From contig JACCGJ010018783.1 in the NCBI GenBank assembly GCA_013407085.1, positions 1 to 64,000 on the forward strand: DNA of 64,000 nucleotides, in the 5' to 3' direction. Position 1 is the stretch's first letter; the number at the start of each line of letters is the position of its first letter. Both the position numbers and the translations under genes were made by a program. This stretch comes from Atriophallophorus winterbourni. Lineage: Eukaryota > Platyhelminthes > Trematoda > Plagiorchiida > Microphallidae. A model generated the notes under the pieces. It saw only the letters and a list, made by a program, of their open reading frames with translations, was not told the origin of the DNA and made no database searches. This document shows, piece by piece, positions 8,920 through 28,605 of the stretch.

Positions 8920-9282
8920 TTACAATTTCGCTAACACTTATGGTGCCGAGAGCATTCAGCGATTCGAACACATTGTTTCTGACAGCGTGCTGTCGAACGT
9001 CTATAGTGTGTGTGCCTGTGTACGTTTATCTGCCACGCTCATTTCACTATAGAAAAAACGTGGATTCTCCCGACAGATTTGTTCTACTGATGACAGACCC
9101 ACACAGGACATTTAGGTCTGAAATCCGTTGAACATGAAATTGGATGAAGATCACACACAGGACGTTTTGCGCTTGCTCCACTTAAACGGCTATTGGGCCC
9201 GGGTGACTATTAGAAATTCTTCACGATGAGTGTGTTCTCGTGAACTTTATGCAACGACTCGATTCAGTAGTTCACAGAGGAC
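8920..9282 (-). pseudogene. SLC6-like last-exon copy, decayed
   Basis: The minus strand reads LCELLNRVVA-stop then EHTHREEFLIV, and further on LCGSVISRTNLSGES, SVADKRTQAHT and SLNALGTISVSE. These align with the intact exon at 35,512-35,874 (LRELLKPVVAWGP, HEHREEFLMV, LCGSVISGITLPEE, SVAEKLTQVHT, SLDALGIISAS). Stops and frameshifts break it. It faces away from the copy at 9,560-9,915, forming an inverted pair. The pair is repeated around 43,100-44,090. Confidence 0.7.
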
Positions 9283-9559
9283 ATACGACGGAACAATGAT
9301 ATAATAACACATGTAAAAATGTTCATGGTTTTAGCTGAATGTTTCAACCTCTCAGTCCATAATGTATGCTATACGGAAACTGTGAACGAGAAAAGTGAGT
9401 CATCAAGATGGCCATTTGCGTGCCGTGATACGTTTCCAATCACACGTGGCTAAGCACGTCATTTCGGGTATGCTGATTCTCCAGTTTCTCAGGTTAGCCT
9501 GCGTAAACTTTCGGCAACAATAATAAAGATTATTGTACATTAGGTTTTATGACATTAAT

Positions 9560-9915
9560 CCTCCACTTACCTTCATGAACTATTACAATCAGCGGTTGCT
9601 TCGGACCCGTGAGAACACATTCAGCATGAAGAATTTTTATGGTCATATTGGCTGATTAGTCTTTCAAGTTGAGCAAACGCAACAACTCGCGTATGAGAAC
9701 TTTATCCCATGCAATGCTCAACGGAACCCAGACGCAAATGAACCATAATCTATGTTGGTCTGTCATCAGCGGTATTACACTGTTGGAAGAACCCAATTTA
9801 CTGGAAGCGGGAAAATTCACACGGGCGCACACAAAAGAATTTGTGAAGCGAGCGGCGAGCAACAAGGAGTTTGAATATCCTGATGCGCTGGGTATCAAAA
9901 TTGACAACCATTCAG
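9560..9915 (+). pseudogene. SLC6-like last-exon copy, decayed
   Basis: The plus strand encodes RTLSHAMLNGTQTQMNHNLCWSV, then EEPNLLEAGKFTRAHTKEFVKRAASNKEF and DALGI, all matching the intact exon at 35,512-35,874. The 5' part is out of frame with a stop (ASDP-stop-EHIQHEEFL). No splice donor is kept at the 3' end. The paired inverted copy is at 8,920-9,282. Confidence 0.7.
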
Positions 9916-10349
9916 TGGGCGAACATTCGTTTCAGTAGAGTGGTTTAATTTCCCATGAACATATATGTTGAATAATGTTTTTGATTTTCTCGCCATGCCT
10001 CATTTGATTCAAATTCACCAGCGACGAGTTGCTTCGTTTTCTCTGTCTTGCGTGTGCTTACCAGCCACACTTAATTTGCTTTGAATATTCTTGGATTGCA
10101 CTCATGGTAGCTGCACAAACGCTGAGGGAGATTTTCAAATGATGACCGTCGATAATGGAGCGGGTGAACCCTTTCAAAATATATTTGTTTCGCTTGCACA
10201 TGGTTTGCGATTCCCGCAAGCTAATGGGCAACTTTACGTGTTGGACGAAGTTTGGAACAATGGTCAGCTTACTATGAATTCCCATTTGTGACATTTTCGG
10301 TGCTTCATTTATGATTAATCCACACTTATCGTTACCGATTCAGCCCGTC
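9916..10349. other. Unit spacer, no gene seen
   Basis: Recurs at about 44,090-44,510. A 66-codon frame at 10,091-10,291 (and 77 codons at 44,281-44,514) is conserved between the copies, but so is the surrounding DNA. I recognise no protein family in it. Confidence 0.45.
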
Positions 10350-11179
10350 TGGTTCAAGCTTCTACGTAACGCCTCAGATGTGCACACATACGGTATACAA
10401 ACTGTATCTCGCCAATTTTTCTCCGATTTTTCGAATGGGTATTTTACCTTCATCAATTGGCGTTTTACAAAAAAATTGGATAACCGTGGTCTCTGAGCCT
10501 TTGGCTCGCTTCACGGTGCGCCAGTTTTCGTTCTACTTCGTCGCTGTACAGGTGTAATATCTTATGGAAAATGGAACATGCTATGGACCTGAAGACCTGT
10601 CTTGGATGAGCGGAAGTGTATCGTTGTACAGCATCTGTATCGATAAGTTTCCGATTGACAGAAATTTTTATTTTTTTATTCACATTTTGTGCTAAACAGT
10701 CAAAAATGGAAGAGTGCCTGTGCAAGATTCAACTTCCTTTATGATCGTAATACGTGGGTTCATTTCATTTAAGTAGTTGAAGATGGCCTCTAACTGATCT
10801 CGCTTGATGATAAAAATGTCATCAACGTCACCATATTTTTGGATTAAGCCCTTCATTTTTAAGTGTTCTCGAAAATGGTCCTAACACATGTTAGCAAGTA
10901 CTGGAGATATCGGTGAACCAATTGCCAACCCTTCTTTTTGTCTATATGATTGCTCATTAAAAACGATACACCGTTGATAATCTGCTGAACGCTCAAGTTT
11001 GTGCGGTCTGACAAACTGGCATCACGTTCCAAGGCCCGTCACTAATTGTTAAGCTAACTATTATTTCATCGTCATCAATTGTTACCGACTTTAAGCGTGC
11101 TACAAAGTCATATGGATTATTGATGAACTAGGCTGTATTGCCGACTAAAGGTTTCAACAAATAAGCCAAATGTCTAGCT
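10350..11179 (-). pseudogene. Penelope-like element reverse transcriptase fragment
   Basis: Read on the minus strand from 11,175: YLLKPLVGNT, FINNPYDFVARLKSVTIDDDEIIVS, then NEQSYRQKEGLAIGSPISP and LANM, YGDVDDIFII, and later NRKLIDTDAVQRYTSAHP, EASQRLRDHGYP and PYVCTSEALRRSL. These match, in order, the conserved segments of Penelope-like reverse transcriptases (KPLVGNT, GxxxGSPxSP, YxDD-type VDD, the HTD...YxSxHP segment, NGYP, IPYVxGxSE). Several stops and frameshifts make it dead. The GIY-YIG endonuclease that normally follows is not visible. It is inserted in unit 1 only; units 2 and 3 lack it. It is relevant because Penelope elements carry and probably mobilise hammerhead elements. Confidence 0.85.
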
Positions 11180-11281
11180 GGCCTGTAATATTTTTAACTT
11201 ATCATAGACTGTTCCATTTTATCAGGTTTCATAACCCAGTATTATAACTGAATACATGCTAAAAGACTCAACTGTCAACTA
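11180..11281 (+). pseudogene. Remnant of SLC6-like exon region
   Basis: CCTGTAATATTTTTAACTTATC and the following CTCAACTGTCAACTATTGGAACTCATGAAC match the diverged SLC6 exon remnants at 45,405-45,570 and, inverted, 40,290-40,400. The exon is cut off by the LINE fragment that follows. Confidence 0.5.
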
Positions 11282-12560
11282 TTGGAACTCATGAACAAGC
11301 TTCCATTCAATTTCAGAATGTGCAAAATGTTACATATTTGGAAAACATCCCATTCTCTTACAAGCTTCGATCACAAAAACTGGAACTGACAACAGAAGAA
11401 AAGTACCTGAGCGTTTCGATTAGTTGAAGTCTGAAGAACAACATGCAATGCGAGGCCATGTAAAACTGAGCAAGCCACCTGCTAGGTATGCTTCGGCACA
11501 TATTTGGACGTTTTTCATTTAAAACATCCCCACTGCTGCTAAATACGTATATCAACCTCCATGGCTACAAAATACACCGAGCTTTCGGGAGGATTTATCG
11601 CAGAGCAACTAAAATGGTGAGCTGTATTCGCGGCTTCCTTTATGGGTTCAACTGGTGCGTCTTAATTAGGATAAAACGGCCCACAAACGTGTTCGATTGG
11701 ATTTAATCCTAACTTATAAAATACTCAAGTCGAAGATACATCCTCTGACGCCTGCATAACGCCGCCGGTCAAGACATACCAGACGCAATCACACATTGGA
11801 ATTGAATAAATCACATTCTCCACGAAACTGCTGTCTGTTCTGCTTTTCGGTGCGCGTTAGTTTCTTAAGAATCTCCTTTTCCGACAGACGTTGTAGAACA
11901 TCTAGTGAAAGGATTTTCAAAAAAGCTGGGCTTGGTAATTCCACCATACAACCCGTTTTTATAAATTATTACGCAAGTTAACACGATAATTATCTCACCT
12001 AATGATTTTGCATCATACTGAGACAATACATGACATATTTTATAAATACAAAACATGTCGACCTTCCCAACGACTCGTTTTTTCGTTGTTCTTATACGAA
12101 TATCATACGCTTTATACAGCTATAAGCATTGTATGCCATATATTGTTGAATCTTGAATCATATCGATCAGGAACTGAAAGCTTGACATGGATCTATGCGG
12201 AAACAAGCTATGGAGTACGGAGTACTGGAAATCATAATCAGGCAGTTCACTGCTCGAATGTAAATCAACAGATCTGCAGATTGTTGGGTTTTATTTAAAA
12301 CAATGTTTTGAAGATTATTGCTAATAACGGTACCAATAATCACGCATGTCTAGGTTCGTCCAACGATGAAATATGTCTAATGTCTATGCTCCTTAGTTGC
12401 GAAAATTATATTGCACTCTGCGATAAAATTTATCACACAGCGACAAAGTCAGTGATAATCCATCGCAAGGTTCCGTACAATGAAAAATGGCGCCGTCTAG
12501 GTCTATGTGACTTTACCCATATCAAAATACCTTATGATATTATTCTCATCCCCTTAAACA
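11282..12560 (+). pseudogene. CR1-like reverse transcriptase fragment, plus strand
   Basis: Decayed pieces of the thumb/C-terminal region of a CR1-type ORF2: LPFNFRMCKMLHI near 11,290, and CDKIYHTATKSVIIHRKVP with RRLGLCDFTHIKIPYDIIL at about 12,420-12,555. The latter matches DEIYHRATKLVMGLHNVP and RRLGLCDFTQRRIRHDIIL of the minus-strand LINE. Many stops. A longer version is at 29,250-30,820. Confidence 0.75.
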
Positions 12561-13925
12561 CTTGATTTTAATGTGTGGTAAGTAGACCTAACTTAATCAT
12601 CAAGATCCAACGTTCACGATCTGATCGTGAGCGTAATAAAAGTTTCTGGAATTTCTCAACATGGGATGGACTCTCCATTGCACGAATATATTTAAAGCGG
12701 AATTTAACTTACATATGTGAACGAACATTAATCGTGAGCATATATATATCAACTCGTTATATACCATTATTCTTGCACATTCACATTCATACGGGAATTC
12801 TGTACTGCTATGAATTGTAGGCATTTTAACCCCATGTCCTAATTTTCATTCGTGGCATTCTCAGTCAAATATTCATGCGACCATCATAATTAATAAGACA
12901 AAACCGTATGATTTAACTTAATTAGTGTTAGCGGCAAGCCAGTGTAAACCCAGAGCGAGATTTTGTATTGACTGATTCGTCATCAATATCTAAATGAGAC
13001 AATGCTCACATATCGATTGATGACAAGTCATTCTACCCGGAGCGACGAGCAATATGCAGTGATGTTTACTGCAATTTCGCATTATCGAATAGATGCTAGT
13101 TCAAATGCCATCCGTGCGAGCGCACTGCCATTAAATGCAGCCGGTAAGTTACAAACAACTTCACTTTCTCGATGTTTGTTTGTAAGCTTATTCCGGAAAT
13201 GTTGTAATATTACGTATTATCAAGTCGCCAAATTGTTCAAATCAAAGATATCTGAACAGTGTCAGCGAATGTCAAATATGTTGCAACAAGTTCGTTTTCA
13301 TATAAGTGCACTTTATGTAACTTATTGAAATGTTCGAGTACATGATTGATAAATTCTGTCGGTAATTATACTTCATATTATCATTATTATCATCAAACAG
13401 CTTCTGGTCTATTGACTGATCAATATCTCTGCCCGTGTAATCTTTCCTTATATTGATCTCAGGATAAATTACTAGGAATATCATGAATAAGTAACTTGAG
13501 TTTCAATGTTTGGTTATTGCGGGTGGTTCACCCAATTATATTTTTATATGAAGATTTGATCCATACACAAGCAGTGAAAATTGATAATAAGTTTCCAAAT
13601 ATTTTAGCATTTTCCAACGAAAATAATAGTGACCCATTCACACTACCGACGATATTCGTGAGTCCGTAGATTTTTCGTGAGTTGTAATTACACCATTACG
13701 TTTAGTCGACGAGAGCAAACAAATCAAAACTAATTTAGAAATGCGGTTCATTGCTGGAAGTGCGTTTCCTTGGTTAAATTCTAGAAATGCTTACGATCAT
13801 CGACCACATTTATTCTAAAACTATGCTGAGCTGGTCATGATTCATCTGAGATTGATTACTACAAGCAAAGAATCGATTATGTTCCTGTACTGAAATTATT
13901 GTTACTCCCTCATTAATAGTTTGGC
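12561..13925. repeat. Non-coding unit sequence
   Basis: Recurs at about 30,820-32,170 and in part at 39,167-40,180, and about 150 bases occur inverted at 45,830-46,010. Very AT-rich. The 108-codon frame at 13,002-13,328 is not kept in the other copies, so no gene is called. Confidence 0.65.
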
Positions 13926-15480
13926 TGAACCGCCACCCGAATTCTCCTCCCAGATATGATCCTCACCTTGTCGAAAACCGCTGCAATCTGCGGAGGACCT
14001 GGAAAACGTACTCTAAAATGCTTACCTGTTCCAGAGTCTACATGTCGTATACATGCAGATTTACCATGGTGGGAGTGAAAGTCGTCGAATAAATCTCGAA
14101 AAGAAAATAATCCAAGAAGTATGGTATTTCTAGGCGTTCCGAAAGATACTGCTGACGTACCTTCTCAAGTAATGTCGGAGCAGGATCACAAACAGTGAAA
14201 ATAACTAGCCGAAACAGTCGGTATTAAAAAAGCCATAATTTTGAATGCTTTTAGGATACCGCGGCCTGCCAACTATAAAAGGCAAGGTTCTGGCCCTTTA
14301 AAGCTAACCTTCTTCACAACCGAAATGACCGATAGTATAAAACGTGAATAGAAAGCTAATAGGAGATACCTACCCCGAAATGTCAAAATGAGCTTGGCCA
14401 GGATAATTGCCGGTAGCAAGCAAACGGATAGTACCGACCCATCAATGCCTAGTGATGCGGTTCAAACTGAATATCATGCGATAGCTCCAAAAACTTGATT
14501 ATTCCGACCGAGTCGGCCCATTGATAACCTTTCATGATTTGAACACTACAAAATTTATAAGATGTTTATATGGAAATGCGCAAAGCCTTTCGAACCAATT
14601 AGCGGAGTTAACTGAGATATGCTCGCACTACTCACCTTACATTATTGGCATTACAGAAACGGTATTCTTCCCAATTGATTGAAACGGAGAATTGGTGGCA
14701 GTGTTGCTCTTTATTATCATAATCGCCTCCAGTTCGGTCAAATGACAACACAGAAATCACCCTCGATGATACAAATGGAACGAATTTATAGATTTTCTGA
14801 AACTGAAGATAGACGAGAACTCGCAGATCGTTCCTAAAAGATCAGAACATGAACTTCATTTTGTTGTCCGCAGAAGAACAAAAATAGAGAAAACTGAAGC
14901 GAGCAGCGTGGATGCAGAATAAAACCAACAATACTTCTACTTCTTGGCCAGATTTCCGTATGCTACGCAACAAAGTGACTTTACTTCATCAAGAGGATAA
15001 GGAAGCACACCAATTGATGCTGTTGTCAAAAATTAGAACGCAACTCTGATTTACTATACACAATCATGAACGCGAAAGCAAAAGTCAAACCAGGTCCAAC
15101 CGTCCAGAATGGTGAAAAACCCACTGAGACCACGTTCGAAACCGCAAATGCTCGCGATTTATTACTCTAAAGTATTCGTGCCAAAGGTTTTAGTGGAACG
15201 TTGTGACTCAGGAATCGAAGCATTGAGCGAAATTTTGATAAATCCAGCGATTGTCTCAAGTTAATTGCTCAAACTAAATGTAAGAAAATCCACAGGTGCG
15301 GATGTCATTACGTCAGATGTGCTCAGGTTCGGACGTCGTCAGCTTTGTGAACCGCTTTCCTGCTTGTTTAACTATTCGAATGTTCATGGAGTGTTACGGG
15401 AAGATTGGAAGTCCGGCGTAATTAGACCTATCTTCCAGGTTGTGGTCCTCGCGATCAGATATTACAATGATTAGGTACGC
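13926..15480 (+). pseudogene. CR1-like LINE, decayed plus-strand copy (ORF1 end to RT)
   Basis: Begins with ORF1-like sequence (reverse complement of 6,960-7,140), passes the ORF1/ORF2 border, keeps scraps of the endonuclease region (about 14,550-14,760) and reaches the RT at MLKLNVRKSTGADVITSDVLRFG and QLCEPLSCLFNYS (15,265-15,400). The middle of the endonuclease is deleted relative to the parallel copy at 32,170-33,850, which still encodes it. Confidence 0.8.
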
Positions 15481-16125
15481 TTCAGGATATGTCCCAAAAC
15501 CGTGCTTAATGGCGGTCTTGCACTAAGCATGTTCTTGAAGTGTTTGCTCAACGTCGTATGTTGTCAAATAGACTGACAAGGAAATTTGATTATGATGCAT
15601 AACAGTGAAGGCATCAAGGAAGCTGTCGTGCTATTGTAGCTCTACTGGTTTACAAAACTTGATTGAGTGCATGTTCCATTCGAGATGTAAGCAACTCATC
15701 CCAGTTTGTTTATGCTTACTCTTCTATAGAATCAGTAGCTATTTGAGTCCCACTCTTCCACATAATCTAGGATTGAACTTTTTCATGGTTGTGTGGCAGT
15801 CAAGCATTCGGTACAATCTATACGTGTTATAGTTTCTCTGATGAAGATGGAGCATCAAAACCTGCGGAAAGATTCGATCCACCTTAAGAGTATAATATTT
15901 TATTTAAATTCAATTTGTTGTAACATATTTGGAAAATAAATTACGAAACATTTTACGAATGAAAACTGAAGAGTAGAAAAGGTAGAAGGTGTGTCTTGTC
16001 AGGTTCACATGGATAGAGCGAAATAAAATGCATAAAGATAATGCATACCAGACGCAGTGTAACATTTCGTTTTAAAAAAAGCTTTCCTAATGAGCAAAAC
16101 CATTCTACTCACTAACATTGCTTAT
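15481..16125. other. Spacer with an unidentified repeat
   Basis: Repeats at 33,850-34,510. The stretch 15,605-15,832 resembles, at protein level in one frame (CYCS-TGLQNLIE, FHSRCKQLIPVCL), an interspersed sequence at 55,278-55,484 on the minus strand (YHCSFTKLIELLFHFLF, HPFPVCSYL). It is therefore probably part of an uncharacterised mobile repeat. No gene is visible. Confidence 0.45.
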
Positions 16126-16487
16126 CGTCTGGCTGGCGCTTATAATTCCAAGGGCATCGAGCGATTCGAAGTCCTTGTTGCTGGCGGCCCGTTTCAATAC
16201 CTCCTTGGTGTGGACCTGCGTGAGTTTCTCCGCCACGCTTAGTTTACTCTGGAAGAACTTAGGTTCTTCCGGGAGAGTAATACCACTTATGACGGACCCA
16301 CACAGGCCATGAGTCATTTGTGTCTGGGTACCGTTGAGCATAGCATGGATAGAGTTCCCATACTGGAATTATTTCGTTTGCTCATTTTGAGTGATTCCTC
16401 AGACCGAATGACCATCAAGAACTCTTCACGATGTTCGTGATCTCGTGGGCCCCATGCAACAACGGGCTTCAACAGCTCGCGAAGGAG
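16126..16487 (-). pseudogene. SLC6-like cytoplasmic-tail exon, frameshifted
   Basis: Acceptor TTTTATAG precedes LLRELLKPVVAWGPRDHEHREEF. The exon is 362 bases against 363 in the intact copies. One missing C near 16,350 (in the CTCTATCC stretch) breaks the frame, after which MLNGTQTQMTHGLCGSVISG and the rest are readable. The splice donor has changed from GTAAGC to ATAAGC. It follows the transmembrane exon at 16,581-16,830 on the same strand. Confidence 0.8.
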
Positions 16488-16580
16488 CTATAAAAGGTTA
16501 ATGAAAAAGTAGGTAAGATATTCATTTCGGAAGCAAGTATAATTATAATACGAAGAATTCTCTATTAGTTAAAAACTCAC

Positions 16581-16830
16581 AATGAAGCCTCCTTCACGAC
16601 AGTATTTGTACAGAAACCAAATCGGAATCAGGCTTATTGGGAAAACTGCCATCACGTTGCCAAAGATGACAGCCCATGCTGGATATCTGTACTTTTCCAA
16701 CGTAATTTCCTCGCCAGCGATGAGGAGGAAAATTACAAGCGCACAACTCAAAGTTGGCGTCACAAACATCCAGCAGATACGACAGAACCAATTTGGCGTG
16801 GGTTTTATTATGAGCCAAATTGGTTTCGGC
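16581..16830 (-). pseudogene. SLC6-like transporter exon for TM11-TM12 (reading frame intact)
   Basis: The open stretch reads KPTPNWFCRICWMFVTPTLS, a hydrophobic helix (CALVIFLLIAG), then YRYPAWAVIFGNVMAVFPIS and IPIWFLYKYCREGGFI, followed by GTGAGT at the exon end (16,575-16,580). The RICWxFVTP, YxYPxWA...G and IPxxxxYK pattern is that of the last two membrane helices of sodium-and-chloride-dependent neurotransmitter transporters (SLC6). It splices in phase 0 to the tail exon. Upstream exons for TM1-TM10 are absent here, so the copy is a partial duplicate although this exon is undamaged. Confidence 0.85.
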
Positions 16831-16849
16831 GTAAATGCTGGTTGATCAA

Positions 16850-17030
16850 TGCACAGATTTTGAGTTGTGCGCTGGTACTTTTCCTCCTCATCGCTGGCGA
16901 GAAATTATGTTGGAAAAGTACAGATATCCAGCATGGGCTGTCATCTTTGGCAACGTGATGGCAGTTTTCCCAATAAGCCTGATTCCGATTTGGTTTTTGT
17001 ACAAATACTGTCGTGAAGGAGGCTTCATTG
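16850..17030 (+). pseudogene. SLC6-like TM11-TM12 exon, inverted damaged copy
   Basis: Mirror image of the exon at 16,581-16,830. The symmetry centre is near 16,815, where CCAAATTGG-type sequence faces its complement. The second half (IMLEKYRYPAWAVIFG to CREGGFI then GTGAGT) is readable. The first half is frameshifted (SCALVLFLLIAGEK in another frame). Confidence 0.8.
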
Positions 17031-17118
17031 TGAGTTTTTAACTAATAGAGAATTCTTCGTATTATTATATTTTCTTCCAAAATGGGTATCTTACCTACTT
17101 TTTCATTAACCATTATAT

Positions 17119-17479
17119 CTCCTTCGTGAGCTGTTGAATCCTGTTGTTGCATTGGGCTCGTGTGATCACAAATACCGTGAGGAGTTTTGATGGTCATTCA
17201 GTCTGAGAATCACTGAAGCTGAGCAAACGAAATAATTCAAGTATGGGAACTCTATCCCATGCTATGCTCAACGGTACCCAGACACAAATGACTCATGGCC
17301 TGTGTGGGTCCGTCATAAGTGGTAATACTCTCCCGGAAGAACCTAAGTTTTTCCAGATTAAACTAAGTGTGGCGGAGAAACTGACGCAGGTCCACACAAA
17401 GGAGGTTTTGAAACGGGCCGCCAGCAACAAGGACTTCGAATCGCTCGATGCCCTTGGAATTAAAAGTGCCAGCCAGACG
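17119..17479 (+). pseudogene. SLC6-like tail exon, inverted damaged copy
   Basis: 361 bases, two shorter than the intact exon. The acceptor AG has become AT (ATTATAT before CTCCTTCG). The 5' half is out of frame; from MGTLSHAMLNGTQTQMTHGL to SASQT it is readable, with a normal GTAAGC donor. It lies just before the retrozyme insertion site. Confidence 0.8.
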
Positions 17480-17560
17480 GTAAGCAAGCGTTGTTTTTGA
17501 GTAGAATGTTTTTTATCCCCTGAACGCTTTTTTGAAAACGAAGTATTCCATTATGTCTGG

Positions 17561-17570
17561 TATGGATTAT
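17561..17570 (+). repeat. Left target-site duplication of the retrozyme array
   Basis: TATGGATTAT; the right copy is at 19,164-19,173. The uninterrupted site in unit 3 reads TATGCATTAT at 35,956-35,965, with matching flanks on both sides. Confidence 0.85.
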
Positions 17571-17721
17571 GCGAATCGAAGTTATCGTCTACTCGCTACT
17601 TTATATGTAGCTGAAGGGACAAACTAAGCCCCAACTGATCGGACGGCGTATTGACGCGATTGTTATTACAACCCCAGGATAGTTCAAAGTAGAATACCAT
17701 TCCGAAACGCTAAAATCTCAC

Positions 17722-17775
17722 CGGAAGCACAGGACCGGTTTCGAGGTTTTTGCCGCTCATCAACTATGCGTTTTA
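17722..17775 (-). ncRNA. Hammerhead ribozyme, inactive copy
   Basis: The core reads TTGATGA instead of CTGATGA, stem II is altered (GCGG) and the outer stem I strand is lost. GAAA and the palindromic stem III remain. The change in the invariant C predicts no cleavage. Confidence 0.75.
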
Positions 17776-17978
17776 GCTGAACTCTTCGAATTTCGAACTA
17801 GTATTTGTGTAGACGGATGGCGCAATGAGAATCGAAGTTCTCCTCTACTCGCTACTTTATAAGTAGCCTAAGGGACTAAACTAAGCCCCAACTGATCGAA
17901 CGGCGTATTGCCGCGAGGGTTATTACAACCAAAGGATAGTTCGAAGTAGGATACCATTCCGAAACGCTAAAATCTCAC

Positions 17979-18033
17979 CGGAAGCACAGGACCAGTTTGT
18001 AGGTTTTCGCCTCTCATCAGCTATGCGCATCCG
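17979..18033 (-). ncRNA. Hammerhead ribozyme, inactive copy
   Basis: CTGATGA is intact, but the second core strand reads ACAAAC instead of CGAAAC and stem III is ACTGGT. Loss of the G of GAAA should abolish activity. Confidence 0.75.
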
Positions 18034-18235
18034 CTGGACTCTTCGCGTTTCGAACTAGTATTTGTGTAGACGGATGGCGCAATGAAAATCGAAGTTCTCG
18101 TCTACTCGCTTCTTTATAAGTGGCTGAAGGGACTAAACTAAACCCCAACTGATCGAACGGCGTATCGCCGCGAGGGTTATTACAACCCCAGGATAGTTCG
18201 AAGTAGAATACCATTCCGAAACGCTAAAATCTCAC

Positions 18236-18290
18236 CGGAAGCACAGGACCGGTTTCGAGGTTTTTGCCTCTCATCAGCTATGCGTATCCG
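18236..18290 (-). ncRNA. Hammerhead ribozyme, intact
   Basis: Same sequence as the ribozymes at 141-195 and 398-452: CTGATGA, GAGG/CCTC stem II, GAAA, ACCGGT stem III, GTC cleavage triplet and both stem I helices. It is on the opposite strand to the copies on the right arm. Confidence 0.87.
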
Positions 18291-18399
18291 CTGGACTCTT
18301 CGCGTTTCGAACTAGTATTTGTGTAGACGGATGGCGCAATTTGAACTGAAGTTCTCGTCTAATCGCTACCTTATAATAGCGGAAGGAACTAAACTACGC

Positions 18400-18634
18400 T
18401 GTGGGTTGTATAACCCTCACGGCAATCCGCCGTTGGATCAGTTGTGGCGTAAGTTTCGGTCCCTCGCTCTTATAAAGTAGCGAGTAGACAAAATATTTCA
18501 TTCAGTTCACATTGCGCCATCCGTCCTACACAAATACTAGTTCGAAAACACGAAGAGTCCGCGGATACGCATACTTATGAATTCAAAAAACTCGAAACCG
18601 TGTCCTGTGCTCCGGTGAGATTTAGCGTTTCGGA
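18400..18634 (+). repeat. Indel-ridden retrozyme monomer at the inversion junction
   Basis: Recognisable as one monomer, but with many single-base insertions and deletions compared with its neighbours (for example GTTGTGGCGTAAGTTTCGG where others have GTTGGGGCTTAGTTTAG). Its hammerhead (18,562-18,614) reads CTTATGA in the core and is dead. Concentrated indels exactly at the centre of a fold-back suggest poor read quality at a hairpin, although real decay is possible. Confidence 0.6.
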
Positions 18635-18815
18635 ATGGTATTCTACTTTGAACTATCCTGGGGTTGTAATAACCCTCACGGCAATACGCCGTTGGATCAG
18701 TTGGGGCTTAGTTTAGTCCCTTCATCTACTTATAAAGTAGCGAGTAGACGAGAACTTCAGTTCACATTGCGCCATCCGTCTACACAAATACTAGTTCGAA
18801 ACGCGAAGAGTCCAG

Positions 18816-18870
18816 CGGATACGCATATCTGATGAGAGGCAAAAACCTCGAAACCAGTCCTGTGCTTCCG
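18816..18870 (+). ncRNA. Hammerhead ribozyme, weakened
   Basis: Identical to the ribozyme at 912-966, including the CATAT stem I change and the ACCAGT stem III. Core bases are intact. Confidence 0.75.
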
Positions 18871-19072
18871 GTGAGATTTTAGCGTTTCGGAATGGTATTC
18901 TACTTTGAACTATCCTGGGGTTGTAATAACCCTCACGGCAATACGCCGTTCGATCAGTTAGGGCTTAGTTCAGTCCCTTTAGCTACTTATAAAGTAGCGA
19001 GTAGACGAGAACTTCGATTCGCATTGCGCCATCCGTTTACACAAATACTAGTTCGAAACGGGAATAGTCCCG

Positions 19073-19126
19073 CGGATACAATAGCTGATGAGAGGCAAAA
19101 ACCTCGAAACCGGTCCTGTGCTTCCG
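19073..19126 (+). ncRNA. Hammerhead ribozyme, last monomer
   Basis: Identical to the ribozyme at 1,169-1,222: core and palindromic stem III intact, one base missing in inner stem I. Confidence 0.8.
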
Positions 19127-19163
19127 GTGAGATTTTAGCGTTTCGGAATGGTATTCTACTTGT

Positions 19164-19173
19164 TATGGATTAT
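19164..19173 (+). repeat. Right target-site duplication of the retrozyme array
   Basis: TATGGATTAT, identical to 17,561-17,570. The following CTTAATGCATCG continues the ancestral sequence seen uninterrupted at 35,966 (CCTAATGCATCG). Confidence 0.85.
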
Positions 19174-20260
19174 CTTAATGCATCGTATTCTGCTCGAAAC
19201 ATATAAGCAATACAGCTCCACTAAACAACTTCTTTATTTTTTGGTTTTTTTGTTGAAAATATTTCATGATATTTATTATTCAAATATTCGAATCGACGGT
19301 ATAACCATTCACACTATCATTGCACGAGACTCAGAATCGATCCTTTTCAATTGGTAGATGATCAAAGCAACTCAATGTTTTTTAGCATGGGCAACCACTA
19401 AATGGTCAGTTGCTGGCAGTTGCATCTGGCTACAAGGTTTTACGTCAATATGTCTGTGAGTTATATGGTACTTTTCGATGTATTACAGTCACAAAGAATA
19501 ATATCAATTTTAATAACACACTTTTGTTTGCCATTACAAAAGTGATAATATACGTAATACTACAAACTACTACTAAGATTTTCTTTATGTATACCGCTAA
19601 ATTTAATGGACAAATACGTAATTATACCACAAAACGTTTGTTAGAGTGAACGTTTTTGTCTCGCAATTAGCCTGCCAGTAAGAACGTTTTCTCTAGCAGG
19701 AAGATCTGCATGAATACTACGTGTAGACTGTGGAACACCACTAAGAAGGTCAACATTTAACAGTACGTTTACCACGTCCTCCGCAGATTGCAGCGTTATT
19801 CGTAAACTGGTTTTGCTGATATCAATTTTGCTGATATCATTGTGTCTGAAATATATTGATAATATATTCATTATTCTAGTTTTCATGAAGGTTAAATAAA
19901 TATTCAGTCTCAAAATTGTTTACACACCTTGTTGTCATCGTGTAAAATTGTCAGCTTTGTTTATATTTCGAAGGACATGTTACTGATGAGTAGTCGAAAA
20001 GTGAACGGAACATTTTTGTTCAACTCAGCTAGTCGCAATTTCGCATTAGCCTTTAAGATTCCGATAAATCACCCATGTTTAATAGATTTTAAATATAAAC
20101 CACACCCATCTTCTTCTATAACCTCTTTAGATTTCTACAGCAAGCCGGATCATGATGTATGCAATGAATCAAAGTAACCAACCAAGCGAACAACCCAATG
20201 AAAATCCCACGAAAATAATCGGTGTTAGCTTGCACTGTATCCGATAGGAAGACCTGACAT
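19174..20260. other. AT-rich unit spacer, no gene seen
   Basis: Close copy of 1,270-2,351. It contains the CR1 ORF1 scrap on the minus strand at about 19,649-19,810 (LRITLQSAEDVVNVLLN). Confidence 0.65.
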
Positions 20261-20550
20261 GGAGATCAGATCGGTTGGGAGACCACAACAGATGTTGCTG
20301 GCTCCTGCACGACTGGTCGGGCAGACAAAGCTACTCAAATGTGCCAGTCTCGAGAAAGATTCATGAACGCTTAATTGGGATCAGTCAAACGGTTCTTAAT
20401 GTGTGGGACTACCCCGGTGATTGTCAAGGTTTCAACTCCCACCCAAGGCTCCGCTGATGAGCTCCAATAAGAGAGAAACTCGAGTCCAGTCCTTACATTA
20501 TGGACCGTCGTGATCAAATTTGGGAATATTTCAAACGACTTGGTACTTAC
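20261..20550 (+). mobile_element. Sm-alpha-like short element, unit 2
   Basis: Matches 2,352-2,640. A box B-like GGTTTCAACTCCC lies at about 20,427-20,440, just before the hammerhead. Confidence 0.65.
20448..20492 (+). ncRNA. Sm-alpha-like hammerhead, core intact
   Basis: CTGATGA at 20,454-20,460, CTC/GAG stem II with a CAATAA loop, GAAA, and the full palindrome ACTCGAGT ending in the GTC cleavage triplet (cut after C20486). The stem I strands (GCTCCG and CAGTCC) pair badly, so activity is doubtful. Confidence 0.68.
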
Positions 20551-21486
20551 GGGTAGTCACAAAAATGATGAACGAATTCTCCAACACCCGTGAAGCCCCC
20601 TAAAAACTCAAGACGCCAAGGTTTGCACTCGTGGGTAACAACGACAGCTAATCCCAACTACCAGATTTCTAAGCGATTCGTAATAGTTCCAAACTTTGAA
20701 ATCTTCACCGAAGCGCAAACGCTCAGTCCACACCATTTCGTTGCCTTTACATCCAACTGTTCTCATGATACCCGCCTCACACACGAAACCTTTTGTATTG
20801 GATTTTGGTTTCTATCGACTCATCAGTTAGCTTGTGACGTATTGTATCGCGAAGCCTCGGACACTTTGTATTTTGGTGTTGAACGTTTATCGTTAGCTTC
20901 ACCACACTATCATATTAATGAATGTATCATGTGCATTGTGTGTTTTCGCGTTTCCTTAGTAAACGATTTTGTCAAACGTATTCTCTATTCGAATTAGCTT
21001 ATATGAGTTGACCATTAGAGTGAATGAAAATTAGATTCAATTTTGAGGAGCAATATGGATATAATCTGCAAGTTGATTTTGACCTAAACCTGTCCCCATA
21101 TCGAATATGCCATGGAATCCTTGGTAGAAATAGAAATCGCACAGCGCAGTGCAACTGAGCTCGTCATTGGCACTTTCTAATCGTCCACATAAAATCCGTT
21201 TCAGAATTCTGAAACTGTGCAAAGCCCAAAACAAAAAGATAACGAAGATCACTAAATTTCCCTGGGAGTTTACTTTATAAAAAATCCCTACTTAGCAGAC
21301 TTGTTTCATCTCCTGTGATAACACACAACTTCCCGGCCACACATTAAAATGTGTCAAAAGCAGCTTGAAATTATTCTACATTTAGTGTCCTTCTGTGCAG
21401 TTGTTAAACAGTTCAACTACCCACGTTTTACTATCTGCTACACTTGATGTTTGAGAAGAATCGCTCGAACAAGTATGTCTTTGCGT
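20551..21486. repeat. Unit sequence downstream of the hammerhead element
   Basis: Copy of 2,641-3,576. A 135-codon frame (20,590-20,997) is open here but shorter in the parallel copies, so it is not called as a gene. Confidence 0.55.
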
Positions 21487-21791
21487 TTCAAGGATTCAAG
21501 GATTTTATGGTTACAAAAGTTAACACTTTAAAACACCACAGGATTACGGTATGAATAAAAACATGAAAAATACAATAGTATAAAAGCAATAGTGAATATC
21601 AAACGTAAGGCTCACGAATGTTATTCTTGTGCATATGTAAATCCAATTTCACTTTCAACGCCGCCAGGCAAGGAGAGTCCACCACTGTTGGGGTAGCAAA
21701 TTCCAAAGAAATATAGCATGTACGGCGAATAAATGGCGCCGACAATCAATACGAGAACTTGGAACGTGAAGGGATAAAGTATGTCCGCGTG

Positions 21792-22445
21792 TCACTTTTC
21801 CATCACACATATCGAGCAAGTGTTTTGGTGGATGTTCTTCGAAGACAAAATTCTATAAGTCGGAATAATATCGTGTCGTATCTTTCTTTGGGTAAAGTCG
21901 CATAGACCCAGACGTCGCAATCTTCCGGTGTACGGAACATTGTGAAGACCCATCACTAACTTTGTTGCTCTATGATAGATTTCATCGAAAAGAGCAATGT
22001 CTTTTCGCAGCCAAGGAGCCCAGACCTCTACCGCATACTCCATCGTAGGGCGAAGGTAGACATTCATTATCCTCGGTAACGTTACCAGAGATAATCTTCC
22101 ACATATTCTTCGAAAGATACCTAACAATCTGTTTGCCCGTCGATATATGTTCTGGCAGTGCGCTGTGCTCTTCAGGTTCCCGCTAATCCACACTCCAAGA
22201 TCTTTTTCTAACGAGCTCCTTGCTAGGTTTTCAGTTCCCAATCGATATGTCCGTGGAACATTCTTGCCAAGATGGAGCATCTTACATTTCTCTATGTTGA
22301 ATGACATGTCATTCATGACCGCCCAATTCGACACGCTGTCCAAATCAATTTGCAGTTCCTCACAATCATCTGCAGAACTTATTGGCGTCCAAATTTTTAT
22401 ATCATCCACGAACAGGACCATTTTGAATTTTGGGGTGTAAATCAT
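21792..22445 (-). pseudogene. LINE ORF2 C-terminal part, open 217 codons
   Basis: Begins MIYTPKFKMVLFVDDIKIW. The catalytic box is FVDD here and FADD in copy 1. It continues through CKMLHLGKNVPRTYRLG, DLGVWISGNLKS, LRPTMEYAVEVWAPWLRKDI and RRLGLCDFTQRKIRHDII. This part is less damaged than in copy 1. It is out of frame with the preceding ORF2 portion by the same break as copy 1. Confidence 0.8.
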
Positions 22446-23530
22446 TTATGTACAGCAGAATGAGGAGCGGGCCTAGCACAGATCCTTGTGGGACTCCACT
22501 GGTGGTTTTGAACGTTTCGGATAGAGCTCCGTTAACTTTAACTTGGGCGTCGCGATCTGTCAAATAGTCGCACAACAATGAGAGGAGTAGATCACATATT
22601 CCTAAATGCATCAGTTTTTGAAGGAGCAAATGATGATTGACTCTGTCAAAAGCCATCGAAATGTCTAGGTAACAGACGTGTATGCAAGCACTTCTATCCA
22701 AATCCTTTGTCCAGTCGTCTAACGCTATGAGAAGATTCGTTAGACAAGAGCGATGGGATCGAAATCCATGTTGCGCTGTCGAAAACAAATCTGTGATTCT
22801 TGAATCGTAAAGTGTGCAACCATTCTTTTCGAGACGATACGTTCCATGAGCTTAGCAATAACAGGTAAAAGTGTGACGGGACGATAATTTGCAGCGTCAG
22901 ATCGGCAACCGCCTTTGAAGATAGGTGTTATCACGCCGCACTTCCAATCTTTCGGTACAACTCCCTTAAGCAACGAATAGTTAAACAGGCTGGAGAGCGG
23001 TTCACAAAGCTGACGGTGACAGAACCTGAGCACATCCGGTGTGATTCCATCCGCTCCTGGGGATTTTCTTACATTTAGTTTGAGCAAATGACTTGCAACA
23101 ATCATTGGATTTATCAAAATATCGCACAATGTTTCGATTCCTGTTTCGATTGAATACTCAAAACGTTCCACGAAAACCTTTGGCACGAACACTTTAGAGT
23201 AGTAAATTGACAAAGCATTTGCGGTTTCCAACGCTGTTCCAGTGAGTTTTTCACCATTCTGGATGGGAAAATACCTGGTTTGACTTTAGCTTTCGCGTTC
23301 ATTATTTTGTTTAGTAACTTAGGTTTGCACTCCATTTTTGATAGGAGCATCAATTGGTGCGCTTCCTTATCCTCTCGAATAAGCGCAGTCACTTTGTTGC
23401 GTAACATACGGAAATGTTGCCAAGAAGTAGAAGTAGTGTTGGCTTTATGCTGTACCCACGCTGCTCGCTTCAGTGCTATCCACGTTTTCGTTCTGCCGCG
23501 GACAACAAAACGAAATTCATGGACGCACAT
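22402..23530 (-). pseudogene. LINE ORF2 reverse transcriptase core, frameshifted
   Basis: Three overlapping frames: 23,530-23,114 (linker, VQHKANTTSTSWQHFRMLRNK), 23,231-22,740 (KSPGADGITPDVLRFCHRQ, NYRPVTLLPVIAKLMERIV) and 22,788-22,402 (QHGFRSHRSCLTN, YLDISMAFDRVNH, SGVPQGSVLGPLL). Single-base indels near 22,790 and 23,270 separate them. Copy 1 is continuous across this region, so these breaks are specific to unit 2. Confidence 0.82.
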
Positions 23531-23724
23531 TTTCTGAACGATCTACGAGTTCTCGTCTATCTTCAGTTTCAGAAAACCTACAAGTTCGTTCCATTGCGAG
23601 TCAGGGCTTATGTTGTTGAAATTGCGGAACCTGCACGAGCCTTTACTCAGGGCCAATTTATCTACCCGTCGAACCAGTGCAATACTCATTACAGTTATAA
23701 CAATTGGCGACGGGGTGCGGAACA

Positions 23725-24792
23725 ATGTCAGTGCCAGTTGAATTTGTACGAGAAGTGCTAAATCAACAGACGCAGATGTTTGGAGAATTAATACAACGTA
23801 TGACAATCAAGACAATCAACAGTCAAAGTTCGGGACAATCAATGGAGAGTCTACTGCAACGGACTTCAGTAGCGCTGGATCTCCTACAAGAAACATTCAA
23901 CATTCAGCTGCAATTCATAGAGAAAGTTGCAGTTCATCAAATAAACAGTTCAAGCTCAGAAGAATCAGTTCAAAGTTCAGTAAATAACGTCGACGAAATA
24001 CAGTCGCATCCAGTTAATGAAGTCGAATTTGATTCATTGAAATTGGAAATGCACATAGAAGATGCTACTACAGAAGATGAGTTCCAGTTCCAAAGGAATT
24101 ATGAGTTTGAGACTAAATTTGAATCAAAGCTGCAGTCCGACCCCGGCAGTAAGTTACAAAAAGTCAGTGAAAAATGTCGGAGTGTGATGAAGCATAAACC
24201 TGAATCAGGAATGAGAGTACTGCTTTTAATCTCAGCCGCAGATGCTGTTCCATACAGCAGGAGAATCAGTAGAGAATTAACTGGTAAAAGAATACGACGA
24301 AACAAAGCCCGTGATGTCATGCCTGAATTTCGACAGACAGGAGATGTTGAAGAGTTTAACCAGAAACATTATGTAATCAATCGTGTGAAAACTGTTGTTC
24401 CAAGTTACGCATACCGGTGGTTCATAAAACTGTTAACTGCCCGACGCAAGCAATATAATTACAGAATCGAACCTCAGTTGAACAAACATCGTGGTGCAAA
24501 ACTGAAAATACTTTCTATTGAGGATAAAGTTTATGTAAAGAACATACGACGCACAAAGGAACCGTCAAAACTATTTCCACGAGAAATCTTTATAAAAACC
24601 GAGGTTCTACCCAATGGCCTCATCAATCATCCAGCAACGCGTTACCTAAAGGCCTCAGTTTATAAAACCAGAATTCGGCCAAACAACACCAGCTTAGCTA
24701 TCGTCCAATGTGTTCATTTTTTTCAAAAAGGGGAGGTGTTGTATAGACGCGTAACGAACTATCGATCAATCATCAATCACGATCGATCGTAA
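23725..24792 (+). CDS. Gag-like/integrase C-terminus fusion ORF of the deleted LTR element
   Basis: 355 codons with no stop from ATG 23,725. The N-terminal half (MSVPVEFVREVLNQQTQMFG, rich in Q, S and E, about 170 residues) looks like the start of a flatworm Gypsy Gag. The C-terminal half has KIRRNKARDVMPEF-like basic sequence and KILSIEDKVYVKNIRRTKE then RYLKASVYKTRIRP, resembling the chromodomain-like tail of a Gypsy integrase. Protease, RT, RNase H and the integrase catalytic core are missing. The last 19 codons lie inside the LTR. Its intactness may mean youth or selection; expression is unknown. Confidence 0.6.
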   Translation: MSVPVEFVREVLNQQTQMFGELIQRMTIKTINSQSSGQSMESLLQRTSVALDLLQETFNIQLQFIEKVAVHQINSSSSEESVQSSVNNVDEIQSHPVNEVEFDSLKLEMHIEDATTEDEFQFQRNYEFETKFESKLQSDPGSKLQKVSEKCRSVMKHKPESGMRVLLLISAADAVPYSRRISRELTGKRIRRNKARDVMPEFRQTGDVEEFNQKHYVINRVKTVVPSYAYRWFIKLLTARRKQYNYRIEPQLNKHRGAKLKILSIEDKVYVKNIRRTKEPSKLFPREIFIKTEVLPNGLINHPATRYLKASVYKTRIRPNNTSLAIVQCVHFFQKGEVLYRRVTNYRSIINHDRS

Positions 24793-24926
24793 GTGCATAT
24801 TGCGATTATTGTTCAGTGTACAAACATTGTGATATTCATTGATTCAGTTAATACACGAGTTCGAGTTCGGTTGTGTTTTGTCGAACCCACGGCTGGGCCA
24901 GTGCAATACTCCTTACAGTTATAACA
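24737..24926 (+). repeat. 3' long terminal repeat
   Basis: 190 bases beginning TGTTGTATAG right after the polypurine tract and ending ACAGTTATAACA. The final 29 bases match the remnant at 23,674-23,702 with one difference. Confidence 0.8.
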
Positions 24927-25890
24927 GTACTACAAACATAGTCGAACACAAGCACTGAATTGTCGCTAAGACCCAGTGGAGCCTGGAATTCGATCGCTTC
25001 GATAGATTGTTCTTCCGATGTTAACACCAATTCCAAGACAGGGACGGTCAGAACCTCTCCTCCAGGTGTATTCGTGAACATGGTTGTATAACGGGATTGA
25101 ATCTAGTACCTCTCTAAATCGGTATTCTAGGGTTTGTGGGGAGTGATCGTCCCTGAGATAAAGGACGGACAGATTAAAATCACCGATAATAAGTGTCGTT
25201 GCTTGCTCTGTGCGAGTCAAGCGCTGAAGCACTTGGATCAACCGTTCGTTGTACGATTCCGTAGATGAAGGGGACCGGTAGGCCACACCAATAATGCAAA
25301 CTTTACCTGACATCATCGCTAAAGAGCACCAAATTGTATCCTCGAGCGTGAATTCTGTTTGGTCTATTGGATGGCACTGGATTCGATTATGGTAATAAAG
25401 AGCAACACCACCACCACTTCTCTTTCGATCGTTACTTATCAAATTCATATTTGGAATTGATATCTCCGTTTCAATCAATTGGGAAGAATACCATATTTCT
25501 GTAATGGCGATAGTGTCAGGTGAGTAGCGCGAACATATCTCGGTTAGCTCAGCTAATTTGTTGGAAAGGCTTTGTGCATTTGCATATAAACATCTTATAA
25601 AGTTTGTGGTGTTCAAATCATGAAAAGTTATCAAAGGGCCGACTCGGTTAGAGTCGGAATGCTCAAGTTTTTTTGAGCTATCGCATGACATTCAGGTTGA
25701 CCCTCATCACTTGGCGTTTGAGGGTCGGTACAATCCTTTTGCTTGTTTCCGGCTATTACCTTGGGCAAGCTCAACTTGACGTTTTGGGGTAGGTTTTTTC
25801 TATTAGCTTTCCATTCACGTTTGATAGTATCCGTCATTTCGGTTGTGTAGAAGGTTAGCTTTAAAGAGCTTGCACCAGTACAGAAAGTTA
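24927..25890 (-). pseudogene. LINE ORF2 endonuclease domain and end of ORF1, unit 2
   Basis: From 25,691 the minus strand encodes the AP-endonuclease (NAQSLSNKLAEL, ITEIWYSS, GGGVALYY, YRSPSSTES, IGDFNLSVL). It is frameshifted near 25,045 by a short deletion (RRGSDRPCLG versus RRGSDRPSVLDLVL). The upstream frame 25,631-25,890 is the C-terminus of ORF1 (KLTFYTTEMTDTIKREWK). The rest of ORF1 is missing. Confidence 0.82.
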
Positions 25891-27047
25891 TAATTAGCTT
25901 CAATTATGGGAACAAAAAGCATGAAGTGAATACAGTATTTTTTTAAATCTGCAGTTAATAGTAGTATTGTGTCCGATATGGCGATCGAAATGATCTTTTC
26001 ACTCATATGGAATTACATTGCGCCCAATCACGATTGTTAGACAAGCAAGACACACGATGCGAAAACGCATAAATCATTGATCTAACACCTATACTTTAAA
26101 GCGAACAACTATTTCAAAATGACGCCGCAACAATGAAAGAAAAAGGTTGATCTACGGTACCATTTGGGACATGATTATCATAAAATCAATCATTAGACAT
26201 TGGAAGTGCAAATGTTAGCATTTATTGAGAAAAATTCCATCCCGCATATATTTACACGCATACTTGGTTCCACCTTCAGCGCTTCGTTGCACACAGAACT
26301 CCGACAAAATTTCTCCACCGAAGACTCACCGGTTACTCTCGTTGGTGCCAACATATTGATTGCTTATTGGACACAATTACGTGAAGTTATACGAGTATCT
26401 TTTCTTCCATTGTGTTTCACGTAATATCGGTCTTGTTGATGGTTCTGGAACATTTTGGGTGGCATAGACATTCCAACGTTAGATTCGGCAAACTAGTCAG
26501 TTTTCCACAGCATTTCACTCAATACCTTGCCATAAATCTTTGTTATTCATAGTCACAGGTAGACGCATCCGCAGGACAACATAAAACATGGGCACCGTGC
26601 GGTCGCATTATTTCGAACTCCCACTTATCAGGATATATTGTTCTCACACTTACACATACGTGGATATATTATACGTTTTAGATTCCTATCGAAGTCAGCC
26701 TTCAGAACATACCACTCTCGTAGCGGTATTCAGTAATACATACAAATTCTGAGTTTTCTTGTGATCCTTCCATATCGGATCTACGCGTATACCGCTTTTG
26801 CTATTCTTCATATCATCAAAGGAATAAGCGACATCGGAAGGAGCTAATTCTTCTGCATCGACTGGTGATATTCTCACAACGTGTGATCAATTCATGGAGC
26901 GTATTGCAGGATTTGATTCTGATTTTACTCTCATTCGTGATAATCGCTTTTCGTCGCGCTCACGCCATTCATCATCGATCGATCGATCGACTGAAACACT
27001 GCGTGTATGCACACCACTGAACTGTGCTGAAAACTGCCCAGAACGGA
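25891..27047. other. Spacer, no gene seen
   Basis: Positions 25,886-26,060 occur inverted at about 40,565-40,745, and about 26,610-26,670 inverted at 8,200-8,270. From about 26,890 it resembles a CR1 5' UTR with a GATC microsatellite (ATCGATCGATCGATCG, about 26,972). Confidence 0.5.
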
Positions 27048-27330
27048 TGACCCCGAAAAGGACACAAAGCGTCTCGGGTTTTGTGTGTGGTCTGCGAAAA
27101 GGCGATGTGCCCCAAGGCGATGACTGCTACGTGTTACGCTTGTTCGTCAAAAGTAAATACGAAGTGCGACAAATCGCTCACCACTGATTTGGTTGCAAGT
27201 ATTAATGGAGAGATTTTTCCTGGTGTTTGTTATGTCTGCCAGTCATTCAAGGCCAAACCGACAGTGATATCCTCGTGGGTAAACACTGCTTGTAACGATA
27301 CTGAAACGCATTTAAATGGACTTAATTGAT
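27048..27330 (+). pseudogene. CR1-like ORF1 N-terminal fragment
   Basis: Starts MTPKRTQS like the complete ORF1 (MTPKRIKS), then shifts frame. The PHD-like finger is readable in the next frame: CVVCEKAMCPKAMTATCYAC, NTKCDKSLTTDLVASINGE, FPGVCYVC. It is cut after HLNGLN. Confidence 0.78.
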
Positions 27331-27779
27331 AAAAACGTCATTAATGTACCTTTGATGTCAGGCACACAGGTTACTATTCAGAGTTTGTAGTGAATGCGTC
27401 ATACTCTTGAAAGCCAACATTTTCCCAGATAGTAACTGAAACAGGTAGGTGTTCGGCGGGAGCACTAACGCCTAAACTTTATGTATTCGTATAGAGAAAC
27501 TTTAGTGAGCTTTTGGCATGTAACAACGAGTCATTAACAGTATTTATTGGTCCGACGCTGTCGACGACGGACTTTTGTGGTTTTTTTAAAGAGGTTGCGG
27601 AATTTTCGCTGGTGATTATGTGTCAACCTCGAATGATTTTGCAATGAAACGCTACAATTTCACCACAGCAACGACTCTGAGATAGCACAATCTAACGTTT
27701 TCAGGTAATTTGTTTCTGCAAGGTTTTAGTTCGGACCCGAAAGCATCTGCCACGCTACTTGACAAAAGTATAACCTTAA
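27331..27779. other. Spacer, probably decayed LINE
   Basis: No frame of interest. It lies between two ORF1 fragments of opposite orientation and is likely decayed ORF1 sequence, but I cannot align it by eye. Confidence 0.35.
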
Positions 27780-28605
27780 GTGGATTTGGACCTTTTCCTT
27801 GATAGTTCGGCTAACAAGATATTCTGTATATGTCGACGACTACAGAAGTTGGGGAACCGATAGTCTCGGCAATTAATGACCACTGTTTAAGATCGTGCTT
27901 TTTGCTTTCATAAACCGTTGCGCAGAATAATACTGTTTGATGCTGTTTGATCCCGACCATTCGGTGTTCGTTGTCTTTCCCACCATGGTACGTCAGCATA
28001 TATAATTTGGTGTGAGTCACTTTGCGCTCGGAGCAAATACGAATTCAGTAGGACATTTTCCATGTGCCTTTCGTTCTCAAAAGTGATCCCAAGCAAACGT
28101 GCTCTCTTGTGTGAAGTCAGTGCTCCCGTCAAACACTTACATACTTCAGTCACCATCTGGGCAATGTTGGGATAAGCAGTCACAACACTCAGTTGAGAAA
28201 GCACTTTTCGGCGTATTTTTCTCAACCTTTTTGCCGCCTTGAGCAACATCTATTTCGGGTTGAATTGTGTTGGCAATTGTATCTACCAAAAGTGGTTTGG
28301 GTGTTTCCTCAAGTTTTTGATAGCAGTTTTTCAAAGTTCTCTATTCTGGGTTCCAGCTTTGCATCATGGGAAGGATTTGTGGGTGTATCGCTAGGCTGTT
28401 TACTTCAACATGCACTACATAGGCAGCAAACGCCGTGGAAACCAACGTTGTTAATAAACAATACCACATTCTGCGTAACGACTTTATCACAGTTGGTATG
28501 TCCTTTACCCAAGCAGCAAAAAGATTTAACTACCCTTTTGTTGCACATTTTACACCCATCACGTGCCTTCTTTGTCTGGGGTATCGAGGTCATCCTTCGT
28601 GTCAT
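27780..28605 (-). pseudogene. CR1-like ORF1 fragment of a different subfamily
   Basis: Minus-strand pieces: MTRRMTSIPQTKKARDGCK and CCLGKGHTNCDKVVTQNVV with GVCCLCSAC (28,605-28,405, finger region), then RARLLGITFENERHMENVLL and IIYADVPWWERQR (28,249-27,908), HDLKQWSLIAETIGSPTSVV (27,870s). The order matches the complete ORF1, with stops and frameshifts between. Confidence 0.75.

Follow-up and report, generated by a model that had tools for sequence, protein, structure and literature searches.

Animal retrozymes have been published, with platyhelminths among their hosts (Cervera and de la Pena 2020; PMC7229834). In the excerpted text of that report, the hammerheads of animal retrozymes are canonical ones and minimal type I hammerheads come from Penelope-like and Terminon elements; Penelope-like elements (PLEs) are named there as a strong candidate helper of retrozymes. 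The helper and the RNA form are treated as open in the excerpts of PMC7229834, PMC8969392 and PMC11722881, where PLEs or LINEs are proposed. The available part of PMC3846280 describes Penelope copies with an inverted pLTR beside direct repeats, with target-site duplications (TSDs) of 8, 9 and 10 bp. Head-to-head is the commonest inverted order in that text, palindromes are found at junctions, and an empty site was demonstrated for one pLTR-flanked Penelope insertion. The same excerpt includes some Adineta Penelope copies without a TSD and one family with mostly direct repeats, and to account for the inverted order its authors prefer self-priming on an antisense template over both-strand priming. 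In vitro, a PLE protein with a preference for AT-rich targets can cleave both strands and extend them, hammerhead cleavage is dispensable for insertion in vitro, and initiation occurs inside the RNA from the same start sites for both strands; that study holds no TSD data (PMC11167929).

We analysed a 64,000-nucleotide stretch of the Atriophallophorus winterbourni genome (contig JACCGJ010018783.1, positions 1 to 64,000), referred to here as the window. It holds two arrays of a 257-bp repeat: array 1 at its start, and array 2 (17571-19161), in which about six monomers lie between identical copies of TATGGATTAT. TRF reported 257-bp repeat blocks at 4-1257, 17569-18396 and 18403-19161, which bore out the repeat length given in the original prediction, and it broke array 2 at 18396/18403. 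TRF and consensus alignment together showed that array 2 is two head-to-head halves and not the single tandem array that had been predicted. The left half, about 3.2 monomers at 17571-18399, is inverted, with its RNA-sense on the minus strand, and the right half, about three monomers at 18403-19161, has its RNA-sense on the plus strand. Positions 18400-18402 (TGT), which stand as three mismatches in the rows of the tandem-consensus alignment, were read as a 3-bp filler at the head-to-head junction. The left half has its outer end at monomer position 87 and its inner end at position 28; the right half starts at position 240 and has its outer end at position 227, or 228 if the T behind the extra G is counted. 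As the predicted hammerhead cut lies at 181/182 of the monomer, none of these ends or junctions is the ribozyme cut site. Both outer ends are the RNA 3' side, and both halves abut the TSDs. The right-half start falls inside a short imperfect palindrome, GGGGTTGTAATAACCC, which begins at monomer position 239 and has 5-bp arms at the junction; this palindrome was spotted after the fact, and a scan found no exact inverted repeats of at least 7 bp around the head-to-head junction.

Inverted repeats are a known long-read artefact, and the arrangement might on that ground be put down to the assembly, through a palindrome from a missed adapter or the collapse of a satellite. However, neither half is a copy of the other, with no left-half monomer exceeding 94.0% identity to another monomer, and the TSDs and empty site are in order. 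The sequence difference between the halves rules out an artefactual hairpin, and we consider an assembly artefact of either kind highly improbable.

On the plus strand TATGGATTAT stands at 17561-17570 and again at 19164-19173, the same sequence on both sides of the array as the prediction held. Across the whole window it occurs on the plus strand at 1260, 11111, 17561 and 19164 and nowhere on the minus strand; the copy at 1260-1269 lies directly 3' of array 1, and no monomer BLAST match was found beside the copy at 11111. A chance 10-mer match within about 5 bp at two random places 1593 bp apart arose in 6 of 20000 draws. At the left junction, 2 bp (AT) are common to the flank end and the monomer. 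The predicted extent of 17571-19163 was right at its start; at the other end monomer sequence stops at 19161, and 19162-19163 (GT, plus strand) are two extra bases, which either were added without a template or belong to a TSD of 12 bp that has one mismatch.

An empty target site, TATGCATTAT, is preserved at 35956-35965 (plus strand) in the paralogous third unit of a segmental duplication, as predicted, and flank alignment confirmed that its surroundings match. The order in the empty copy is GTCTGG TATGCATTAT CCTAATGC, that at the left junction GTCTGG TATGGATTAT GCGAATCG, and that at the right junction CTACTTGT TATGGATTAT CTTAATGC. The array 2 right flank is identical to the empty copy at 627/647 positions and the array 1 right flank at 628/647, the two occupied right flanks agreeing with each other at 635/647, while the left flank (14774-17570) is identical to the empty copy at 2568 of 2781 ungapped positions, a divergence of 7.7%. 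The target site lies in a palindromic element, and the tip of this element's other arm has a second TATGCATTAT, on the minus strand at 16038. At one base the two TSD copies have G, against C in the empty site and in that other arm, so the target probably carried the G before insertion. A clean 10-bp TSD with an empty site is typical of a mobile element's endonuclease. With a TSD and an empty site in place, a plain tandem satellite is ruled out, and the prediction that the array moved as one unit is supported on the same basis. A later inversion inside the array was likewise set aside, since the inverted half runs all the way to the TSD.

Array 1 (1-1259, plus strand; TRF and alignment) starts before the window start and contains at least 4.9 sense monomers. 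Its last two monomers are identical to those of array 2 at 257/257 and 226/227 positions, and the right junction and TSD copy (1260-1269) are also common to both. The remaining 53 pairs among the 11 monomers are 3.1-13.3% different, the 15 pairs within array 2 being 6.0-13.3% different. Near-identity of the last two monomers shows that the arrays come from one insertion, or that one was copied onto the other; arrays 1 and 2 therefore count as a single insertion event. Upstream of the shared monomers, array 1 stays direct, and array 2 has a decayed monomer followed by the inversion; no inversion was found in the in-window part of array 1.

The segmental units are arranged in tandem and are 16-17 kb long (1258-17570, 19164-35955 and a third from 35956). 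Across the aligned parts, identity per 250-bp block is 86-99.6%; it stands at 99.6% in the block immediately right of the arrays and fluctuates beyond it with no steady trend. Dating from the left flank contradicts dating from the right, and thus no age is claimed. The palindromic element measures about 1.5-1.6 kb (34395-35994 and 16038-17570) and is 87-88% self-complementary; array 2 sits at the tip of its right arm, and weaker relatives of the element (65-75% identity) are found near 8915-9960 and 43265-44100. A 363-aa open frame at 23701-24792 (plus strand), with no Pfam match at E <= 0.001, lies in a part of the second unit for which the first unit has no aligned counterpart. Elsewhere in the window, 48001-56000 shows an AT skew of 0.12-0.15 in 4-kb blocks, compared with -0.08 to 0.05 in the other blocks.

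Hammerheads were assessed against Rfam RF02275, which has a gathering score of 52 bits; at Rfam gathering thresholds the window gave no match at all. At E <= 0.3, RF02275 matched 10 of the 11 monomers long enough for a hammerhead, with scores of 21.5 to 43.8 bits, all sub-gathering. The E-value list, which covers 1-20000, contains RF02275 eleven times: ten of these are in monomers, and the eleventh, at 2544-2578 (E 2.1), is probably a chance match. Scoring of core and stems found one array 2 motif fully intact, at 18224-18295 on the minus strand (42.5 bits, predicted cut after 18247). Two on the plus strand have an intact core and weakened stems: 18811-18882 (predicted cut after 18859) has lost one stem I and one stem III pair, and 19068-19138 (predicted cut after 19115) has a stem I weakened by a deletion. 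The other three are broken, with a broken core on the minus strand at 17967-18038 (21.5 bits) and 17710-17781 (34.9 bits), and a broken core plus several indels in the plus-strand monomer at 18420-18678, which is the one absent from the Rfam list. In array 1, three motifs are fully intact and two more are core-intact with weakened stems. The predicted hammerheads are present as sub-gathering matches in most monomers, with three of the six array 2 cores broken; the cut sites 184 and 441 that had been assigned to this array both belong to array 1.

Stem I of the motif is extended and contains an internal loop, and stem III is loop-less in the four alignments examined, which places the motif between the minimal and canonical classes. 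Canonical hammerheads feature contacts between loop 1 and loop 2, and in the excerpt of PMC7229834 the invertebrate-like stem III has two base pairs and a tetraloop, unlike the loop-less stem III of array 2. With such a stem III, cleavage may need two copies; two-copy cleavage is reported for amphibian motifs in the available text of PMC7229834 and suggested for PLE motifs in that of PMC7761336. The type I assignment of the original prediction stands, although it took the minimal form as a retrozyme trait, which the excerpted PMC7229834 ties to PLEs and Terminons. Exact hammerhead patterns had no match in viral and prokaryotic contig collections, a result of little weight for an animal element.

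The state of the monomers bears on whether the array could have originated at the DNA level, with a satellite piece or extrachromosomal circle joined in at a staggered break, the inversion produced by repair or recombination, and the hammerhead incidental. The divergence among array 2 monomers is as in an old satellite, and the locus lies within a palindrome-rich, segmentally duplicated region. However, both halves abut the TSDs, so that a later internal inversion would need a breakpoint exactly at a TSD; the 10-bp TSD and empty site point to an element endonuclease; and 8 of the 11 monomer copies that were scored keep the hammerhead core (6 of 9 when each of the two copies common to both arrays is entered a single time). 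We judge a DNA-level origin unlikely.

The monomer is 257 bp with a GC content of 0.46, and no ORF of at least 150 aa overlaps array 2. Modelled as a circle, the array 1 monomer at 185-441 has a predicted fold of -87.8 kcal/mol, versus -61.7 (s.d. 5.0) for 100 shuffles (z -5.2); three other monomers were folded as circles without a shuffle comparison. A B-box-like word, GTTCGAAAC, lies on the sense strand at monomer position 116 and is present in 10 of the 11 monomers in the two arrays; such a word arises by chance in about 6% of shuffles per strand, and no suitably spaced A box of a Pol III promoter was found in the monomer.

Taken together, we think it probable that array 2 was inserted as an animal non-LTR retrozyme, a retroelement that bears hammerheads and is not autonomous, with both-strand priming by a helper. 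In such an event, multimeric retrozyme RNA, whether read-through or circular, would be bound by the reverse transcriptase and endonuclease of another element, and the target would be cut on both strands with a 10-bp stagger. cDNA copying from both exposed DNA ends would then yield two cDNAs that meet head-to-head (twin or both-strand priming), and copying from both ends would leave each half's RNA 3' side next to the flank. The locus would later have been duplicated within the 16-17-kb unit to give arrays 1 and 2, with decay of the monomers. We infer the RNA intermediate, the circles, the both-strand priming and the identity of the helper from what is one insertion event.

By analogy with described insertions, a PLE would be the likeliest helper, with about an even chance of being the right one, and an RTE-type LINE the next likeliest, a candidate we hold to be distinctly less probable. 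The excerpts of PMC4245944 give TSD peaks of 3-5 bp for L2, much the same for CR1, 10-12 bp for RTE and 13-15 bp for L1. Judged by geometry and by a TSD of 10 bp, or of 12 bp if one mismatch is allowed, a PLE or RTE element fits and CR1 does so poorly. It speaks against a PLE that the outer ends do not coincide on the monomer (227 and 87), and an RTE element gives the same TSD length; no PLE was found in the window among the 10 of 16 ORFs of at least 150 aa that were Pfam-scanned. Expressed repeats in Fasciola hepatica include Penelope as well as RTE families, according to the available part of PMC11270206.

A wholly LINE-driven account, in which the RNA was copied by a resident LINE of the RTE type and L1-style twin priming produced the inversion, agrees with the RTE TSD peak in the excerpted PMC4245944, a peak that a possible 12-bp reading of the TSD, with one mismatch, would also match, and with the presence of reverse-transcriptase ORFs in the window. 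However, the 5' inversions in that excerpt are of human L1 in human cells, plus one Nimb-2_DR insert; the L2 element tested there gave no 5' inversions, RTE and CR1 being outside that test. No monomer BLAST match was found in the window outside the arrays, and a tail shared with a LINE thus did not show, the LINE 3' ends being unmapped. We regard this account as possible but rather unlikely.

LINE-type ORFs, several of them decayed, lie at 4493-7869 (minus), 21792-25691 (minus), 37312-38401 (plus) and 55664-61932 (minus), and the window's LINEs may be CR1-like. In the Pfam scan of 10 ORFs, a reverse transcriptase domain was found in 4493-6568, together with an endonuclease domain, and in 59297-61156; 37312-37857 had one just under the Pfam cut-off. 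ORF 4493-6568 has 106 relatives, of which 15 are labelled by organism: 10 Dicrocoelium dendriticum, 1 Paragonimus westermani, 1 Echinostoma caproni and 3 Branchiostoma (amphioxus). Digenean flukes thus account for 12 of the 15, in line with the flatworm family that had been predicted. The best 120 of 7851 matches to ORF 59297-61156 include many from Mycteria, other birds, a turtle, bacterial bins and two Dicrocoelium, and a third ORF searched had 5 matches.

Within the retrozyme reading, the template could have been a single circular RNA, in which case the monomers were identical at insertion and their differences came later. We compared variants across 10 monomers, counting orthologous pairs once. 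Private variants dominate, with 74 of 109 variant cells in single monomers, and the 12 shared minor states are ordinary in a star simulation (mean 9.5; at least 12 in 21% of 5000 runs), so that the pattern is star-like overall. Left-flank dating (7.7%) would also allow enough post-insertion decay for both shared monomers (P 0.99 and 0.26). Against a single circle, 5 of the 10 monomers, drawn from both sides of the inversion, carry the minor state at both of the adjacent positions 81-82, and five sharers at any site appeared in 3 of 5000 star runs. Right-flank dating gives 11 changes in the last shared monomer against about 1.3 expected (Poisson 1.5e-7), and 4 against 1.5 expected in the other (P 0.064). 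Gene conversion could be the source of the 81-82 sharing or of the excess monomer divergence. We lean weakly towards a mixed, multimeric template and hold copying of one circle to be the less probable course, though a tenable one. A broader and quite speculative idea is that animal retrozymes might be minimal satellites of PLEs, their uncut heterogeneous multimers being reverse-transcribed from both cut strands and the circle being a by-product and not the transposition intermediate.

Set beside known systems, array 2 resembles the metazoan non-LTR retrozymes of the excerpted PMC7229834 in monomer length (170-400 bp there), type I hammerhead and tandem copies. Those elements have a GC content under 50% and, when present, TSDs of >4 bp (here 0.46 and 10 bp), and like array 2, which lacks an ORF of at least 150 aa, they have no coding capacity. 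The retrozyme assignment in the original prediction thus holds in these traits, and what it missed is the inversion. Expression as linear and circular RNA is a further mark of the class, and the circular RNAs foreseen in the original prediction are putative for array 2. Array 2 differs in its head-to-head halves and preserved empty site, no inverted arrangement being described in the available text of PMC7229834; in the open-access literature, no inverted or head-to-head retrozyme appeared in the titles or abstract starts among the matches listed. PLEs (Adineta vaga, PMC3846280 in excerpt; Anolis PAc, PMC11167929) share with array 2 repeats of about 200 bp in tandem organisation, and PAc also has a hammerhead in the repeat. 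With inverted-pLTR PLEs, as excerpted, array 2 has in common a head-to-head repeat, an 8-10-bp TSD and a palindromic junction. PLEs carry an ORF for reverse transcriptase plus GIY-YIG between the pLTRs, whereas array 2 has no such protein-coding part, and it has several monomers per half; in PAc both strands start at the same RNA sites, whereas the array 2 outer ends differ.

Among flatworm repeats, Schistosoma SMalpha and the W-element (PMC8490949, in excerpt) are likewise satellite-like with type I hammerheads, and one W-element there has a possible TSD; the SMalpha-type monomer is 335 bp, against 257 bp here. A SINE mobilised by CR1 or L2 would share a 3' tail with its LINE and have a TSD of about 3-5 bp (PMC4245944, in excerpt), the TSD found here being 10 bp. 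The 5'-inverted L1 products of twin priming in the same excerpt have an inverted left part, a direct right part and a TSD, as array 2 does, but their TSD peak is about 15 bp and their template is not tandem. Array 2 is thus a genuine retrozyme-type insertion, ordinary in kind and unusual and informative in structure, by which a repeat otherwise filed as satellite is shown to have moved as a unit. What is new here is a single insertion that combines a TSD, an empty site and an internal inversion. TSD, empty site and opposed halves form a footprint open to counting in any genome, and PLE, RTE and CR1 helpers should be easier to tell apart from the frequency of head-to-head copies, the TSD lengths and the end positions.
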